IMG/VR virus record: IMGVR_UViG_3300043395_001694
Location: 1-23,466 of that record
Strand: one strand, 5' to 3'
DNA: 23,466 nucleotides
Source of the DNA: a virus
Of this stretch, positions 11,803 to 18,857 are shown one piece after another (the first letter of the stretch is position 1; the number at the start of each line of letters is the position of its first letter). The position numbers and the translations under genes were made by a program. The notes beneath the pieces are model-generated. The model was not told the origin of the DNA. It did not search any database and saw nothing but the letters and a program-made list of their open reading frames with translations.

Positions 11803-14600
11803 TATGATATGGATGCTAGATGCAGATCTTTAAATATATTTCCTACTGGTTGTGCCTCGTCAGACGAATCTGAAGGCATAGGAACTGGAACTGTATTAGT
11901 ATTATTTACACGTATAATCTGAACACTTGTTGCCATCTGTTCTTCTAATGGTGCCATCGCTATCAGTTTTTCTGTCTGTCCAGCATTTGCTCCGTATCCA
12001 GTAGGGTTACCAAACTGATCATACTTACCAGTAAATCCTTTTCCTGCTGGTAGATTCATTTGTTTTTTGATTCTTTCTAGTTCAAGTTCTCTAGCATAGG
12101 GATTATTAAGAGGAGATGCTCCTTTACTTCCACCACCAAACATACCAAATAATCCTGCTACTTGATTGTTTGGTACAATAGTTCCATTTTCTTTTGGAAC
12201 AAAAAGTTCTGGTCCTTCTTCTCCTACCATATAAGGAGTCTTTGCTATTACTGGTCCCCCACCAGCTCTACGTTTTGGTGTTTGATCTGGTTTTGGTGGC
12301 GGTCCTTTTGGTCCATCTCTGGTAATTGTGGCACCATTATCAATACCATCTCCACTCAATTCTTCAACTGGTCCTTTCAACATATCTTGAACACCACGAA
12401 TAGCAGACCCAACGGGATCTCTAACCACTTCATTTACTTTTTCAATTGTTTCTCCAACTTTTGACATCAAAGAAGTTTGTGCTTTTGGTGGTGTTGCTTT
12501 TGGTTTATCTTCTTTTTTCTCTTCTCTCTTAGTAAAGAATGGTTGCTCCATTTTAAATTTACTTAGAGGATCAAATTTTCCAGTTATTACTCCACCGTTC
12601 CAACCAGTTCCAGTTTCCCAGTGTAAATGTGGTCCAGATGAATCACCAGTGCTACCAACCTTACCAATAATATCTCCCTTCTTTACTGGACCACCACGCT
12701 TATATCCACCGAGCATATGACCATATAAATGGTGGATATTTTGGTTATCTTTGAATACCAAAAAGTTTCCCCAACCTCCGTTTAATGAATCCGAATCTAC
12801 AATTTCACCATCACTAATTGCTCTAAGAGGTGTTCCAGAATTTGCGGCGATATCTGTTCCCCCATGATTTCTACCTCTGGAAGGTGCATATCCATAGTCT
12901 TCAGTTTTTGTGAGTGTTATACCAGTATCAGGATCTGTATATTCATACCCTCCACCCTGTAGTTGTCGTAATGCTCTGGATACTGGATTATTTCTCAAAA
13001 AGTTTCCAACATTATCTGCAATATTTTTAAAGAAATCAATAACATTTGTCAATAGATTCTGCAAGATACCAGGAAGAGATGGTTTAGCAAAGTATTTTTC
13101 ATATCCCTCTGCATATAATCTACCAAACTTCACCTTGTTCTTTGCTTCATAATCTAATTCATACTGATACATCTTTTTGAATAGATCTGGAGATAGATCT
13201 GTTACTCCTGGTCTCTTATTTGAAAACGTAGATCTTCTAGTCAATCCACCTTCGGCAAAAGGTACTGCTCCACTATCTCTAGCAATAAGTGCCGCATCAA
13301 TAGCAACAGATCCAGCAGTTCCTAACCCAGGAATAGTACTAGCAGCACCAGATGCTAACTCTAAACCAGCACCAAGAAAATCTCCCTTTGCTGCTCTTTC
13401 CAAAGCAAAGAATGTTCCTAAACCTAAACCAACTAGTGGTATCTTTTTACCTAAGAACTTAGCAGCACCTTTCTCAAGTCCAGCTTCCGCTGCTTCTTTT
13501 CCAGCATTCTTTACTACTGTTTCTGCAACTTCTTTTCCAACAGTTTTTTCTAATGCTTTACCAGTAAGCTTAGATGCTATCTTACCACCAGCACCTTGAG
13601 CCAGTTTTAATCCTCTGCCAGCAAGGAACTTACCAATTACAGCGCCACCAAGAACTTTAGAAATTGATCCGCCAATTCCTCCACCATCTGATCCTGGTCC
13701 CTTATCATTATCTTTTATTCGACTAGTTCCAGATGATGATTTTTGTTGCTCCATGCTAATCTCTTCGTTGAGAGATTCTTGAGCATCCAATCTTTTCTGG
13801 TCTAATTGCTTTTTGTTTGTGGCAATTCTTGCCATGGCAGATGTCTGTAGATCAACTGCCTGTGTAACTTTTGTAATTAATACAGTCGTATCTTGGAATC
13901 CTTTTGTGAGTGTATCACTTTGTATTCTAAATGCATCTGATACGGCAGCAATATTAGTATCAGATACTTCAGATAGTTCTATAAGTTTTTGAAGATGACT
14001 TTCCATTCTCACAAAAGTCTTCATCATAGACTTCATGAGACTAGATCTTTTCTTCTTTTTTGTTTCTGGTTTTTGTTCTTCTTCTGGTTCCTTTGCTGGA
14101 GGAAGTAGATTAGTTTTTGGTACGACAATAGGTTGCTTTTCTGGTACAGTTCCTTCTCCCCATGGGTCTTCAATAATATCCGTCGTCAGTTCTACTGCCT
14201 GCTCTACTTCTTTCTCTACTTTCTTTCCGTTCAGTCTATCTGCAATTCTCTGTGCCGCTTGACGATCTTCTATTTTTTGATCAATCTGTTCTTGGAATGG
14301 TTTCTCAAGATACTCTTCTACTAACCACTCTTGATATTTCTGCTGCCTCTCCATCCACTGTATTGGAGTACCACTACTCTGATCTAAAGAAGGATATCCA
14401 CGAGGATCTTTCTTTAAATTTTCAATCAATCTATCAGCATCTGCCCCAGTTAAATTTACATACGAAGAATAGTGCTCACCATTTGTAGGTCTTCCAGTAA
14501 GACGAGCCTTTAAAGTATTCCACAAAGGAGATTGTGGTCTAACATAAGACCACGGAATTTGTGGATCTAGTATTCCTTCTGGTGGTTCTGGTAGTCTCAT
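11802..14600 (-). CDS. Tape-measure-like tail protein with M23 peptidase domain
   Basis: The 932-residue protein starts ATG 14600, overlapping the preceding stop by 4 bases. Residues 100-280 are helical/coiled and charged. Residues 315-450 form a hydrophobic Gly/Ala-rich region (KKIPLVGLGLGTFF, GDFLGAGLELASGAAS) shared with the next protein upstream. Residues 570-670 form an M23 (LytM-type) metallopeptidase with H579-x3-D583 (NHGGTDI), H628 (LYGHM) and H658-L-H660 (GPHLHWE), so the zinc and catalytic residues are intact. Near residue 782 the phrase GGPVIAKTPYMVGEEGPELFVP is typical of tape-measure C-termini. Inferred role: tail length or central tail protein that cuts peptide cross-links during DNA entry. 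T4 gp29 (590 residues) has no such enzyme domain. Confidence 0.72.
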   Translation of the reverse strand: MRLPEPPEGILDPQIPWSYVRPQSPLWNTLKARLTGRPTNGEHYSSYVNLTGADADRLIENLKKDPRGYPSLDQSSGTPIQWMERQQKYQEWLVEEYLEKPFQEQIDQKIEDRQAAQRIADRLNGKKVEKEVEQAVELTTDIIEDPWGEGTVPEKQPIVVPKTNLLPPAKEPEEEQKPETKKKKRSSLMKSMMKTFVRMESHLQKLIELSEVSDTNIAAVSDAFRIQSDTLTKGFQDTTVLITKVTQAVDLQTSAMARIATNKKQLDQKRLDAQESLNEEISMEQQKSSSGTSRIKDNDKGPGSDGGGIGGSISKVLGGAVIGKFLAGRGLKLAQGAGGKIASKLTGKALEKTVGKEVAETVVKNAGKEAAEAGLEKGAAKFLGKKIPLVGLGLGTFFALERAAKGDFLGAGLELASGAASTIPGLGTAGSVAIDAALIARDSGAVPFAEGGLTRRSTFSNKRPGVTDLSPDLFKKMYQYELDYEAKNKVKFGRLYAEGYEKYFAKPSLPGILQNLLTNVIDFFKNIADNVGNFLRNNPVSRALRQLQGGGYEYTDPDTGITLTKTEDYGYAPSRGRNHGGTDIAANSGTPLRAISDGEIVDSDSLNGGWGNFLVFKDNQNIHHLYGHMLGGYKRGGPVKKGDIIGKVGSTGDSSGPHLHWETGTGWNGGVITGKFDPLSKFKMEQPFFTKREEKKEDKPKATPPKAQTSLMSKVGETIEKVNEVVRDPVGSAIRGVQDMLKGPVEELSGDGIDNGATITRDGPKGPPPKPDQTPKRRAGGGPVIAKTPYMVGEEGPELFVPKENGTIVPNNQVAGLFGMFGGGSKGASPLNNPYARELELERIKKQMNLPAGKGFTGKYDQFGNPTGYGANAGQTEKLIAMAPLEEQMATSVQIIRVNNTNTVPVPMPSDSSDEAQPVGNIFKDLHLASIS

Positions 14601-17071
14601 CCTACTGCAACCTCAGTGAATATTGGTGAGAGATCCCTTCTAGAAATACCAACCCTAGAAGAATCATGTTTGGGAACTGCCGCGCTAGAACCTCCACCAT
14701 TATTAATTAGCGACACCTGAACATTTGCTCCACTTGTTGTTTTTGCCAGGGCAACCTCTTGAGACTTACTCGATAAAGCAGTTGCTTGTCTATCATCTCC
14801 AGCAGGTTGTGTAAGAGATCTACCTTTTTCTATGAACATATCTTTTAATCCAATATTAGCATTATTGGTTGTAGATATATCTTGATTACCAGGAAGGTAC
14901 GCTTTTGTTGTATCATATAATTTCCATCCATCTCGTTCACGTACAGCTTTGTATTTGTTTTCTGGACCAAATGAGAAGCTTCCTCCTAGAGGAACTCCAA
15001 AGTTATCACCAATCCCTTTCAACCAGTCTGGTCCAGTTGGTTTGTTTGGTGGTGGAGGTGGTGTTTGTGCATTTGCTTCTGCAAGATTTTGTTGATAAAT
15101 CTGCATAGACTGTTTTATAGTTCGTGAAGTTTGATTATATCTTGGTCCCAGACCAGACCATATATTATTTGCCTTAATCAATTGAGACTCTGTAATATTT
15201 TCTATATCAACTCCACCAGCTCTGGCTAGATGCAGTAAGATTGAATTTTGAGTCTTTGCATTGAAAATATCAGTACTCTTAAATGTTCCCCTGTCTAACA
15301 ATCCTTGTAATGTATCTGGCATTAACTGTGGTGCTCCAGTTGCTCTGGATCCAGATTTATATCCCATAGATCCACCACCAAATCTCTGTGGAAGATTGCC
15401 AGACAACATACTTTCCTTCACTTCACCAAGAGTCATTTGCGTTAGTTGAGGAATAACATTTCCACCATATACTTTAGTATAACCATCTTCTCCAGCAGTT
15501 CCTTCAACTTCTCTGACTGTAGCAATAAATGCTTTTTCTTTTGCGGTGTCTGCTTCTACAGAAGCAGCATCTAATTCCCCATTTCCTGGAGGACCGCCTG
15601 GTGGTGTATAATCTGGGTCAAAAATACCACCAGCACCTTTCAGCAAAGTGATTAGTGTTTCTCCAAACTTCTGCCAACCACCTCTGTTCTCATAGTATTC
15701 TTTAAGTCCTTCTGCTTGAACATCAGCAAACTTATTTTTATTCCTTTGAATAGCATCAAGTCGTGCCTTATTCATCATGTCAAATGTTTTCTTATTCCAT
15801 GGTGTAATCAACTCAGGATCCTTTCCTTCACCAACAACACCTAAGGTTGGTTTAGTAACCATACCACCCTTAGCAAATGGGATTGCTCCACCATCTCTCG
15901 CTGCGATGATACCATCAACACCCAACGATGCTGCTGTTCCTGCACCAGGAACCATGCTAGCAGCACCAGAGGTCAGTTCCAGACCAGCACCAATATAATC
16001 ACCCTTCATCGCTCTCTGAGCAGCAAACAGGGCACCTACACCAAGACCCAGCAGAGGTATCTTCTTAAGACCACTCTTCAAACCAGCTTTAGCAAATGCC
16101 TTTCCAGCACCTTTGGTTATAAATTTGGCAGCACCCTTACCACCCATGGAAATTGCTGCTCTCTTGGCTGCTCTACCAGCGCCACGTCTTGCAATTTTCT
16201 GTGCCAAGGCAGAGGCACCAAACATTTTACCAAAAAATCCACCTTCCGATCCACCTTTACCAATTTTCCCAAACTCTTTTACTGATGCGTTACCCGCGCC
16301 ACCATCTTGACCCTCAAGCAGCGCCTCTTCATCTAATGCCTGCTGTCTATCAATATTTTTTGCATCTAAATTCTTCTGCTCTTGGTCCAAACGAACCATA
16401 GTAGCAGTTTGTTTTTGTATAGATCCCAATAATGTATAGAGTGCCTTACTGAGACCATCAAACCCAGAGGTAACAACTTGACTCTGCTTATTAATGATCT
16501 CAATTAAACCTTCTGGAACTGATGTTGTATTTGTAAATTTCTCAGATAATCTTGTTAGTTGTATCTCTATCCCAGCAAGAGCAGATGCCATCGCTTCGTT
16601 GATGGCAGCACGACTAGATCTTGATGATTTTTTCTCACCCTCTTCCTTATTCTTTTCGGTCTTTGGTTTTCTACCAACCATAGAATCTTTTGCTTCTACT
16701 TCTGGTAAAGAATAATCAAATCCTTCTCGATATCTTCCTTGTCTAGATTTTGTGGCATCTCTACCACCAGGAACATCTTTATCGAAAAAACTTTCTACTC
16801 TTCCACGATTTCTAGCAATCTTATCGCCACCAAACTGACTACCTAATGCCTTTCTAAAGAAAGATCCTCTACCAAATCTCTGTGAGAATTCTTCTTGTGT
16901 TAGTCCTCCTTCTTGACCAACTTTTAATTTATTTCTTGCGTACTTTTTTTCTGTACCTGCCATGTTTTCGGCAGATTTTATCTTATCCCAAGAGAGCTTG
17001 GCAATCTGAGCAACAACATTTTTGTCGCCCCTAGTATCACTAAGACCAGCTGTTCCTGATGAAACTGCCAT
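14597..17071 (-). CDS. Tape-measure-like tail protein with muramidase-like domain
   Basis: The 824-residue protein starts ATG 17071, overlapping the stop of the -1-frame gp51-like ORF (TAATG). Residues 150-260 are helical. Residues 285-400 form a Gly/Ala-rich hydrophobic region (KKIPLLGLGVGALFA, GDYIGAGLELTSGAAS) closely matching its downstream neighbour. Residues 401-425 (GGMVTKPTLGVVGEGKDPELITP) resemble a tape-measure motif. Residues 510-660 look like a phage muramidase of the lambda-lysozyme/GH104 type: a Glu-containing REVEGT (E521/E523), Y--VYGG, then ATGAPQLMPDT near 577-587. Catalytic residues are suggested, not proven. The C-terminus (GANVQVSLINNGGG) resembles that of T4-like hub proteins. 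Together with the M23 protein it would supply wall hydrolysis in the tail. Confidence 0.7.
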   Translation of the reverse strand: MAVSSGTAGLSDTRGDKNVVAQIAKLSWDKIKSAENMAGTEKKYARNKLKVGQEGGLTQEEFSQRFGRGSFFRKALGSQFGGDKIARNRGRVESFFDKDVPGGRDATKSRQGRYREGFDYSLPEVEAKDSMVGRKPKTEKNKEEGEKKSSRSSRAAINEAMASALAGIEIQLTRLSEKFTNTTSVPEGLIEIINKQSQVVTSGFDGLSKALYTLLGSIQKQTATMVRLDQEQKNLDAKNIDRQQALDEEALLEGQDGGAGNASVKEFGKIGKGGSEGGFFGKMFGASALAQKIARRGAGRAAKRAAISMGGKGAAKFITKGAGKAFAKAGLKSGLKKIPLLGLGVGALFAAQRAMKGDYIGAGLELTSGAASMVPGAGTAASLGVDGIIAARDGGAIPFAKGGMVTKPTLGVVGEGKDPELITPWNKKTFDMMNKARLDAIQRNKNKFADVQAEGLKEYYENRGGWQKFGETLITLLKGAGGIFDPDYTPPGGPPGNGELDAASVEADTAKEKAFIATVREVEGTAGEDGYTKVYGGNVIPQLTQMTLGEVKESMLSGNLPQRFGGGSMGYKSGSRATGAPQLMPDTLQGLLDRGTFKSTDIFNAKTQNSILLHLARAGGVDIENITESQLIKANNIWSGLGPRYNQTSRTIKQSMQIYQQNLAEANAQTPPPPPNKPTGPDWLKGIGDNFGVPLGGSFSFGPENKYKAVRERDGWKLYDTTKAYLPGNQDISTTNNANIGLKDMFIEKGRSLTQPAGDDRQATALSSKSQEVALAKTTSGANVQVSLINNGGGSSAAVPKHDSSRVGISRRDLSPIFTEVAVG

Positions 17072-17256
17072 TACTTCTTCTGCTTCTCTTGCTCTTGTTT
17101 GAGGTTATCGAGATATTGCAATAGCAGAGAAACATATACCTGCCTCTCCCATGGATATAGATTTTCAATCTCTGTCAAGCTATATTTATGGTGCTGGATC
17201 AAAGCAAAGTTAGTTTTATAATACCCTTCCAGAGTATTGTGGAAGAGTGCTACCCG
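17071..17256 (-). CDS. gp51-like tail-assembly extension in the -1 frame of gp26 (no start codon)
   Basis: The -1 frame after gp26 encodes 61 residues (RVALFHNTLEGYYKTNFAL... ending LKQEQEKQKK) and stops with TAA overlapping the tape-measure ATG. The -1 frame is open only from 17286 and contains no ATG, GTG or TTG before the segment, so independent initiation looks unlikely. Its core (LTEIENLYPWERQVYVSLLLQYL) is the kind of pattern seen in tail-assembly chaperone extensions and T4 gp51-type proteins. A slippery site T-TTT-TTC at 17256-17262 would join it to gp26 residue 237, giving a 298-residue fusion. It is a strong candidate for a programmed frameshift product. Confidence 0.75.
   Translation of the reverse strand, partial: RVALFHNTLEGYYKTNFALIQHHKYSLTEIENLYPWERQVYVSLLLQYLDNLKQEQEKQKK
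17183..17190 (-). promoter_or_regulatory. Possible internal late promoter (CATAAATA)
   Basis: The minus strand reads CCATAAATATAG, identical over 12 bases to the sequence upstream of gp54 (18884-18891), 112 bases before the first tape-measure ATG. It lies inside the gp51-like coding frame, so selection for codons cannot be excluded. Confidence 0.3.
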
Positions 17257-17262
17257 AAAAAA
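17224..17262 (-). promoter_or_regulatory. -1 programmed ribosomal frameshift signal
   Basis: Minus strand: slippery heptamer T TTT TTC (17262-17256) in gp26 frame, then GGG and the TAG stop (17252-17250). An 8-base spacer (17255-17248) leads to an 8-bp stem with one T-G pair (17247-17240 with 17231-17224) and an 8-base loop. The stem begins where stimulatory hairpins are normally placed. After a -1 slip the next codons are CGG GTA GCA, exactly the gp51-like frame. Confidence 0.72.
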
Positions 17263-17966
17263 CTTTGAAGACCCTCGATTGTGTATTCAGACTTCTCGCC
17301 AGTCTTTGGATTCACTACACTAAATGTATGCTGAAGTTTTGGTGCTGTATCAAAGAACTTCTGTACCTTTTCGAACTGTTCGTTGGTAAATTTCTCAACA
17401 AACTCAATCTTTTCTTTTCTTGTCGTCGTTGATTCGTCATAAACAGAATCTTCGTCAAACATTTGATCGATACTATCAGCAAGAATCTCAAATACATCAT
17501 CTGTTGTAACTTCTTTCTCTACAATAGATCCTTCAACAAATCTATTGAAACCAGGATACTTCATGATAATACCAACATTATCATCTAGCATAATTTTATT
17601 GGTATGTCCTTCTGGCTTGACAACTTTTACATCATGTAGATTAATTTGTGTCGTAACTCTTGTCTCACCATCATCTAGACATGTTACCTGCATCTCAATC
17701 ATTTCACCAACAGATGCTGCGCGAATTTTGAGAAAGATATATTCTAAATCAAAAGTGGCAAGATCATCAATTTTTACACCACGAGTTTGAATACATGCAG
17801 TAAGAAGATCACGTACAGCATTCTGAATAGTTTCTGAATCATCACTCTGTAGTGCTAAGAGTAATACCTTTTCTTCCTTAACTACAAACGGACGATACTT
17901 GATCTTCTTTCCAGTAGAAGGTACTTCAAGTTCATACGTTGGATGTTCTAACTTTGGCAAAGCCAT
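17250..17966 (-). CDS. 26: gp26 baseplate hub/tail-assembly protein
   Basis: The 238-residue protein starts ATG 17966 (MALPKLEHPTYELEVPSTGKK...) with GAGG about 8 bases upstream. It matches the T4 gp26 family (T4_baseplate, about 208 residues in T4): an N-terminal PTYELEVPSTGKKI-YRPF-VKEEK segment, ALQSDD--TIQNAVRDLL-ACI, a TFDLEYIFLKIRAASVGE motif near residue 90, and a C-terminal helix-rich EKFTNEQFEKVQKFF region. The gene ends at a slippery site, so a minor fraction of ribosomes may make a longer gp26-gp51 fusion. The gene directly precedes the tape-measure genes, as G/GT chaperones do in lambda. A late promoter and a repeat element sit upstream. Confidence 0.85.
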   Translation of the reverse strand: MALPKLEHPTYELEVPSTGKKIKYRPFVVKEEKVLLLALQSDDSETIQNAVRDLLTACIQTRGVKIDDLATFDLEYIFLKIRAASVGEMIEMQVTCLDDGETRVTTQINLHDVKVVKPEGHTNKIMLDDNVGIIMKYPGFNRFVEGSIVEKEVTTDDVFEILADSIDQMFDEDSVYDESTTTRKEKIEFVEKFTNEQFEKVQKFFDTAPKLQHTFSVVNPKTGEKSEYTIEGLQSFFG

Positions 17967-18068: not shown

Positions 18069-18857
18069 CTATGTCGATGCAGCATCAAGTTCTGCTTGAG
18101 TAGCAGCGGATGATTGTGTACCAACACCAGATCCTTGCCCCTCTGATCTTCTTACAGATGCAGATGGTTCGTTCTTTGTGTTAATAAAGTATGTATGATG
18201 ACGTGCATAGTAGAACGATGCTGTTACCTTTGTAATTTGTGATGCTCCGTACTGAAGTGGTACGGCATCAATTGCATATGGATATGCTTGTTCAATATAG
18301 TATGCAATAGGTGGTCTTCCATTAGCAGCATTAGGAGAAATCTCTGTTTTAGTAATCAAAATATCAAGCATATATTCATCTGGATATCTTACTCTAACAG
18401 ATCTATTCTTCCCAATATCTCCCTGTGGAATTTTTCCTTTCATCTTTGTCAGTTCATACCTTTCATTTCCAAGTTTAACTGGAGTTACTCCAAAGATAAA
18501 ATCATTCCATGTCGTTAAAAATTTGAGGGGTGTCATGTCAGCATCGCACATCCATCCTAATTGAAAATCACTATACACTCGTGTGTGAGCATAATTTACA
18601 GCACCAGAACCAAGATATCTACCATTTATTGTTCCAGTAGCAGTACTTACATTGGGAAGTTGTGCCTCATCACAAAGTAATCTAATAATTTGCTCATCTT
18701 TCTGTCCTTTCATGGTGTATGCAGAAAGAAGATTTTTTATTCCATCTCCAGATGCAGCGGGAAATCTAAACTCTATATCCCAGTTGTTACTGAAGGACAT
18801 ACCTCCAGCACCAGCTATGGTCTGTAAAAATATGTCAATACTTCTTGCTGCTGCCAC
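18069..18857 (-). CDS. 54: gp54-like tail-tube initiator (gp19 tail-tube family)
   Basis: The 262-residue protein starts with GTG 18857; AGG 8 bases upstream supports it. The N-terminal region (SIDIFLQTIAGAGGMSFSNNWDIEFRFP) and the central DFQLGWMCDADMTPLKFLTTWND segment match the T4 gp19/gp54 tail-tube fold. T4 gp54 has 320 residues and gp19 163. I call it gp54 because it neighbours gp26, gp48 and gp53 rather than the sheath gene gp18, but a gp19 role is not ruled out. It would cap the hub and start tube polymerisation. The C-terminal 35 residues are low-complexity Ser/Gln/Gly/Ala. Divergent from gp4. Confidence 0.7.
   Translation of the reverse strand: MAAARSIDIFLQTIAGAGGMSFSNNWDIEFRFPAASGDGIKNLLSAYTMKGQKDEQIIRLLCDEAQLPNVSTATGTINGRYLGSGAVNYAHTRVYSDFQLGWMCDADMTPLKFLTTWNDFIFGVTPVKLGNERYELTKMKGKIPQGDIGKNRSVRVRYPDEYMLDILITKTEISPNAANGRPPIAYYIEQAYPYAIDAVPLQYGASQITKVTASFYYARHHTYFINTKNEPSASVRRSEGQGSGVGTQSSAATQAELDAAST

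Follow-up and report, generated by a model that had tools for sequence, protein, structure and literature searches.

The window analysed here comprises 23,466 bases of an IMG/VR virus record (IMGVR_UViG_3300043395_001694) and belongs to a marine T4-like phage, a cyanophage. At the 3' end of its gp26 gene lies a heptamer on which ribosomes could slip into the -1 frame, and this frame stays open and encodes a part related to gp51 of phage T4. A sequence-only reading of the window had proposed a programmed -1 frameshift at this position, arranged like G and GT of phage lambda. The locus consists of the following features (TAC, tail assembly chaperone; TAC-N and TAC-NC, the putative short and long form; aa, amino acids; nt, nucleotides).

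17250 to 17966, minus strand: gp26, putative short form TAC-N, 238 aa; PF12322 (T4_baseplate) E = 3e-70, phrog_150 E = 4.5e-76
17256 to 17262, minus strand: slippery heptamer T_TTT_TTC in the gp26 frame, read from the sequence and conserved in relatives
17250 to 17252, minus strand: zero-frame stop TAG, one codon past the heptamer
17223 to 17248, minus strand: candidate stimulatory hairpin, arms 17248-17240 and 17231-17223, 8-nt loop
17071 to 17256, minus strand: -1 frame extension, 61 codons and TAA, putative gp51-type C-terminal part of TAC-NC with LYPWER motif

The gene ends with CAA AGT TTT TTC GGG TAG, which places the heptamer at 17262-17256 in phase with gp26 and the TAG at 17252-17250. 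In-frame T_TTT_TTC occurs three times in the ~5450 codons of the window. The -1 frame proceeds from CGG (17256-17254) over 61 codons to a TAA (17073-17071); the final A of this stop, at 17071, also opens the next ATG, giving the overlap TAATG. A slipped product would have a length of 237 + 61 = 298 aa. Hence the heptamer with its stop one codon later, the 61-codon frame running into the next ATG and the fusion of about 298 residues are all present as the sequence-only reading had described them. Scanning the extension of the window for start codons yielded no ATG and no GTG.

In the Pfam search PF12322 spans the full short form (236.7 bits, cut-off 24.5). At E = 1.2e-26 phrog_634 (baseplate hub assembly catalyst, gp51) is matched by the extension, in support of the earlier assignment of a gp51-type C-terminal part. 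A second match, to positions 230-276 of the 282 in phrog_150 (gp26), gave an early hint that this tail is in frame in some proteins of the gp26 family.

Conservation of the slip site and selection on the -1 frame

A search with the extension gave 80 viral contigs, which together with three isolates make up 83 loci. In 83/83 of them the heptamer reads TTTTTTC, with the zero-frame stop at one position. Since this query starts with the slip-site phenylalanines, the search was redone with the gp26 part of the relatives only. It returned 93 loci, 89 with an intact 3' end, one broken upstream and three cut off. All 89 intact loci carry the heptamer, either as T_TTT_TTC (77) or as T_TTT_TTT (12). The T run is always in the X_XXY_YYZ phase of the gp26 frame and is followed by a stop 0-3 codons on. 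The extension measures 59-68 residues in nearly all of these loci; two are shorter, at least one of them being cut by the contig end. A comparison of the site in sister phages had been suggested from the sequence, and close relatives lacking the slip site were looked for; none was found.

The same arrangement is seen in isolates of other groups, namely Sinorhizobium phiN3, Stenotrophomonas BUCT608, Vibrio D483 and Vme32, the KVP40-type phi-pp2, Pelagibacter HTVC008M, Methylophilales Melnitz, Aeromonas ZPAH1 and Aeh1, Cronobacter S13, Rhizobium AF3 and P10VF, Acidovorax ACP17, Desulfovibrio 7757 and Prochlorococcus P-HM1. Heptamers of the distant phages are T_TTT_TTC, T_TTT_TTT or T_TTT_TTG, each with a phrog_634-type -1 frame; the -1 parts of Aeh1, Vme32, ACP17, 7757 and AF3 match phrog_634.

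Three loci are worth mentioning. In Aeh1 (L103:3001-3180) gp51 is found as an unannotated -1 frame past T_TTT_TTC. Vibrio phage Va1 (L102:1955-2644) has the uninterrupted long form only (229 aa) and no slip site at the locus. In Ackermannviridae (L087:3727-3760, L101:3290-3320) the gp26-type gene ends with GAA or GAG followed by ATT TTC ATT TAA.

Purifying selection changes its frame exactly at the heptamer, ahead of the internal ATG that is annotated as the gp51 start. This was evaluated in 81 close relatives by the ratio of nonsynonymous to synonymous changes (pN/pS), taken from simple pooled pairwise counts and not from tree-based estimates. Over the ~40 codons upstream of the heptamer pN/pS amounts to 0.395 in the zero frame vs 2.03 in the -1 frame, over codons 2-19 past it to 0.072 in the -1 frame vs 2.04 in the zero frame. 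Moreover a -1-frame stop directly adjoins the heptamer on its 5' side in 16/90 loci, so that translation could enter this frame only at or after the heptamer. The conserved heptamer and the selection on the -1 frame thus support the programmed frameshift.

Downstream of the heptamer ViennaRNA predicts a 9-bp stem (17248-17240 with 17231-17223), starting 7-8 nt past it and having an energy of -13.3 kcal/mol including flanking pairs. An 8-bp hairpin after an 8-base spacer had been described from the sequence; the hairpin is there, and its stem is one pair longer with a spacer of 7-8 nt. As a control, random synonymous variants of the same peptide with the zero-frame stop kept were folded. They reach -4.8 +/- 2.4 kcal/mol vs -13.3 in the window (z = -3.5). 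Across nine relatives z ranges from -1.8 to -5.8, and it is -3.5 or lower in 7 of the 10 sequences tested. In the stem, 94.5% of cells pair vs 41-67% in slid controls. As the hairpin is more stable than its recodings it looks to be under RNA-level selection in the close relatives. The elements that characterise a programmed -1 frameshift, X_XXY_YYZ and a hairpin within about 5-9 nt downstream, are both present.

Predicted fold, gene neighbourhood and proposed mechanism

The structure of the window gp26 was predicted using AlphaFold2 (25 sequences) with a predicted local distance difference test score (pLDDT) of 86.6. Comparison by VIA-align gives as top rows YqbN (3klu, Z 7.7), the HK97 tail assembly chaperone (2ob9, 7.4) and 3fgx (7.2), followed by 5ir0 (5.3) and, after a clear gap, by a row of 3.4. 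The top four cover about residues 1-95. YqbN is presumably a member of the XkdN-type chaperone group. The predicted N-terminal part of gp26, roughly residues 1-88, aligns with HK97 gp13 and YqbN at Z 7.4-7.7; gp26 has ~140 residues more than these proteins and shares 6-11% sequence identity with them. We regard the TAC-like fold as being of moderate strength, the gap to unrelated rows being clear. It supports a two-form chaperone resembling G/GT, which had been proposed from the sequence. At the sequence level, the search for PDB relatives returned chance-level matches only and no Phage_TAC Pfam model matched in the Pfam search of the window proteins. A model of T4-type gp51 compared with viral models matched gp26-type proteins of many phages.

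The neighbouring genes of gp26 are a tail-tube-type gene upstream and two large open reading frames (ORFs) downstream:

18069 to 18857, minus strand: tail-tube-type protein upstream of gp26; PF23849 (Phage_TTP_2) E = 1.8e-61, phrog_45
14597 to 17071, minus strand: 824-aa ORF, candidate tape-measure/hub protein, its ATG overlapping the extension TAA
11802 to 14600, minus strand: 932-aa ORF with M23 peptidase domain (PF01551), paralogue of the 824-aa ORF

In HTVC008M the region syntenic with the 824-aa ORF is called 'putative tail tape measure'. The function of this ORF as tape-measure/hub protein is presumed from the synteny; no tape-measure model of Pfam matched among the ORFs downstream of gp26. 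The adjacent 824-aa and 932-aa ORFs are paralogues over ~330 residues (E = 8e-46), and either of them or both may be tape-measure/hub proteins.

Taken together, we consider it very probable that a -1 frameshift yields TAC-N (gp26) and a 298-aa TAC-NC as a chaperone pair, and that T4 makes the same two proteins from its paralogous genes 26 and 51. Most ribosomes would terminate at the TAG and release gp26 (TAC-N, 238 aa). In a minority, aided by the hairpin 7-8 nt downstream, the tRNA-Phe would shift its pairing on T_TTT_TTC from TTT TTC to the -1-frame codons TTT TTT, and these ribosomes would complete the TAC-NC fusion bearing the gp51-type tail. On the model of lambda G/GT one would expect TAC-N to coat the tape-measure protein, the extra domain of TAC-NC to recruit tube subunits and both forms to depart from the finished tail. 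We infer that frameshifting takes place in cells, in a minority of ribosomes, and that the products act as chaperones.

Alternative sources of the gp51-type part

Several observations speak against this interpretation. The description of the -1 frame as free of start codons stands for ATG and GTG and fails for TTG, which occurs 20 codons into the extension (17202) and opens an ORF of 43 codons; a 43-residue piece could be started there. Ackermannviridae keep a conserved open -1 extension (FHLIFEIDLLSYFVMCDELK) without a canonical heptamer. Several distant phages with the heptamer have a weak hairpin or none at all, and covariation was sought in the stem without finding any, because the stem is almost invariant. 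All Z values of the fold comparison are below 8, and VIA-align of the T4-type gp51 model against structures gave no TAC among its rows, a negative that by itself rules out no reading.

How else could the two frames be joined or separately expressed? RNA polymerase might slip on the T6 run, so that part of the transcripts gain one U. A run of T6 or T7 could act as a substrate for slippage, and the conserved element is mainly this run. However, the run keeps the X_XXY_YYZ phase with the stop close behind at every gp26-selected locus, the downstream hairpin is under apparent RNA-level selection in close relatives, and the arrangement is retained where the heptamer ends in G or T. We therefore give polymerase slippage a very low probability.

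Alternatively, translation of the gp51-type part could begin within the -1 frame, at the TTG at 17202 in the window and at an ATG in relatives, yielding a small protein of its own, with no fusion being made. GenBank records such as those of S-RSM4, Syn1 and phi-pp2 indeed annotate gp51 from an internal Met, and an ATG lies 5 codons after the heptamer start in 55 of the 89 gp26-selected loci. Against this stand the missing ATG and GTG in the window frame, the strong protein-level selection in the -1 frame over the 18 codons ahead of the internal start, the invariant heptamer, and T4 gp51 and Va1, in which the same two parts are fused without interruption. The probability of a separate protein in place of the fusion is exceedingly low; an internal start as the sole source of gp51 was rejected, since the selection precedes any ATG. 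In many relatives an ATG is situated 4-5 codons past the heptamer, sometimes overlapping the gp26 stop as TGATG or TAATG (L120-L177, L086, L090, L093, L105). As this ATG is kept so soon after the heptamer, the C-terminal piece may in addition be produced there on its own.

A homopolymer error in sequencing or assembly, which the sequence-only reading had named as a possible source of the split, has practically no probability: the split does fall in a T run and T4 gp51 is a single frame, but the same split is present in every close relative examined (83/83 and 89/89 loci), across numerous independent contigs and isolates, and comes with one class of stop position and with abutting -1 stops. The frameshift thus appears real, ancient and well supported; the interpretation as a two-form chaperone is well supported as an inference.

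T4 genes 26 and 51 and comparison with known systems

Both T4 gp26 (208 aa) and T4 gp51 (249 aa) match PF12322, with E = 9e-64 and 4e-52, respectively. In phrog_150 T4 gp26 covers positions 14-235 and T4 gp51 positions 13-280 of 282; the latter also matches phrog_634 (E = 1.2e-23). The two T4 proteins find each other directly by BLASTP (E = 2e-6), and window-type gp26 and gp51 do so by hhalign (E = 3e-9). On these matches T4 gp26 and gp51 are paralogues, gp26 corresponding to the short form and gp51 to the whole fusion. As T4 gp51 has its own copy of the gp26 domain, it equals the entire fusion and not the 61-residue part, and equating that frame with T4 gene 51 does not hold.

T4 gene 26 ends with AAA GAG TTC TTT GAG TTA CTA TAA, so the two phenylalanines are kept and the slip site is lost. 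T4 and the window phage share the protein family and a short form next to a long form with the same C-terminal part. T4 has two divergently oriented genes without slip site, whereas the window phage has one gene with a -1 frameshift; in T4 the short product would come from gene 26 and the long one from gene 51. In the Slopekvirus phiKp_12, a Klebsiella phage (L106:3001-4295), a tandem of a gp51-type gene and, directly after it, a gp26-type gene occupies one strand, in contrast to the divergent T4 pair.

An unrooted tree of the domain common to all of them separates three sets, each on one side of a branch: the frameshifted genes (support 90/88), the gp26s (89/82) and the gp51s (100/99); the frameshifted side includes two Ackermannviridae rows. 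Because several families, and within Straboviridae several lineages, have slip sites, a duplication combined with slip-site loss in the lineage of T4 seems the simplest history. We consider it likely that the T_TTT_TTY frameshift is the ancestral source of the T4-type chaperone pair in this phage group, T4's family (Aeh1, KVP40-type, phage 65-type) included, that genes 26 and 51 arose by duplication, after which either copy retained one of the products and dropped the slip site, and that the tandem 51-26 of Slopekvirus is a remnant of this. One recoded gene and two duplicated genes would be alternative routes to the same protein pair.

T4 gp26 and gp51 have been listed as hub assembly chaperones (Leiman et al. 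2010, PMC3004832). The G-T frameshift is described as widely conserved with T4 being the exception (Atkins et al. 2016, PMC5009743). Sullivan et al. 2010 (PMC3037559) noted that cyanophage gp51 has ~20% of the normal length, the first ~200 residues being absent, and that gp51 is missing in Aeh1 only. Both peculiarities are explained by the frameshift: the absent residues would come from gp26, and the Aeh1 part sits in the -1 frame. Our analysis favours regarding gp26, labelled 'baseplate hub', and gp51, labelled 'hub assembly catalyst', as tail assembly chaperones. It also points to phage records that lack gp51 or begin it at a wrong internal Met.

The core idea is not new. According to papers citing it (PMC10885494, PMC12846349), Vladimirov, Gautam and Davidson (Virology 2022, 10.1016/j.virol.2021.11.003) identified the TAC genes of T4-like phages. 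PRFect (PMC10885494) cites this work for a short gene next to a longer fusion gene in some T4-like phages, the Adele paper (PMC12846349) for poly-T slip sites in T4-like TAC-N genes. Our reading of the citing text together with the sequence evidence given here is that T4 26 and 51 are meant. As that study, in the account of these papers, recognised the chaperone genes as a short and a long copy apart from each other, the chaperone role of genes 26 and 51 is, by the same account, known since 2022, and the window is a further member with limited novelty. The ancestral frameshift may partly be contained in the 2022 work as well. Possibly new are the breadth of the frameshift distribution and the missing 'gp51' of Aeh1.

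The arrangement proposed for the window, with a short and a long chaperone form, is that of lambda G and GT, the slippery sequence in the window being T_TTT_TTC. A similar case is the TAC of Vandenendeviridae and Andersonviridae (PMC12846349), phage families different from that of the window phage, with a poly-T slip site (GTTTTT) and a -1 frame open in all alleles ahead of the tape-measure gene.

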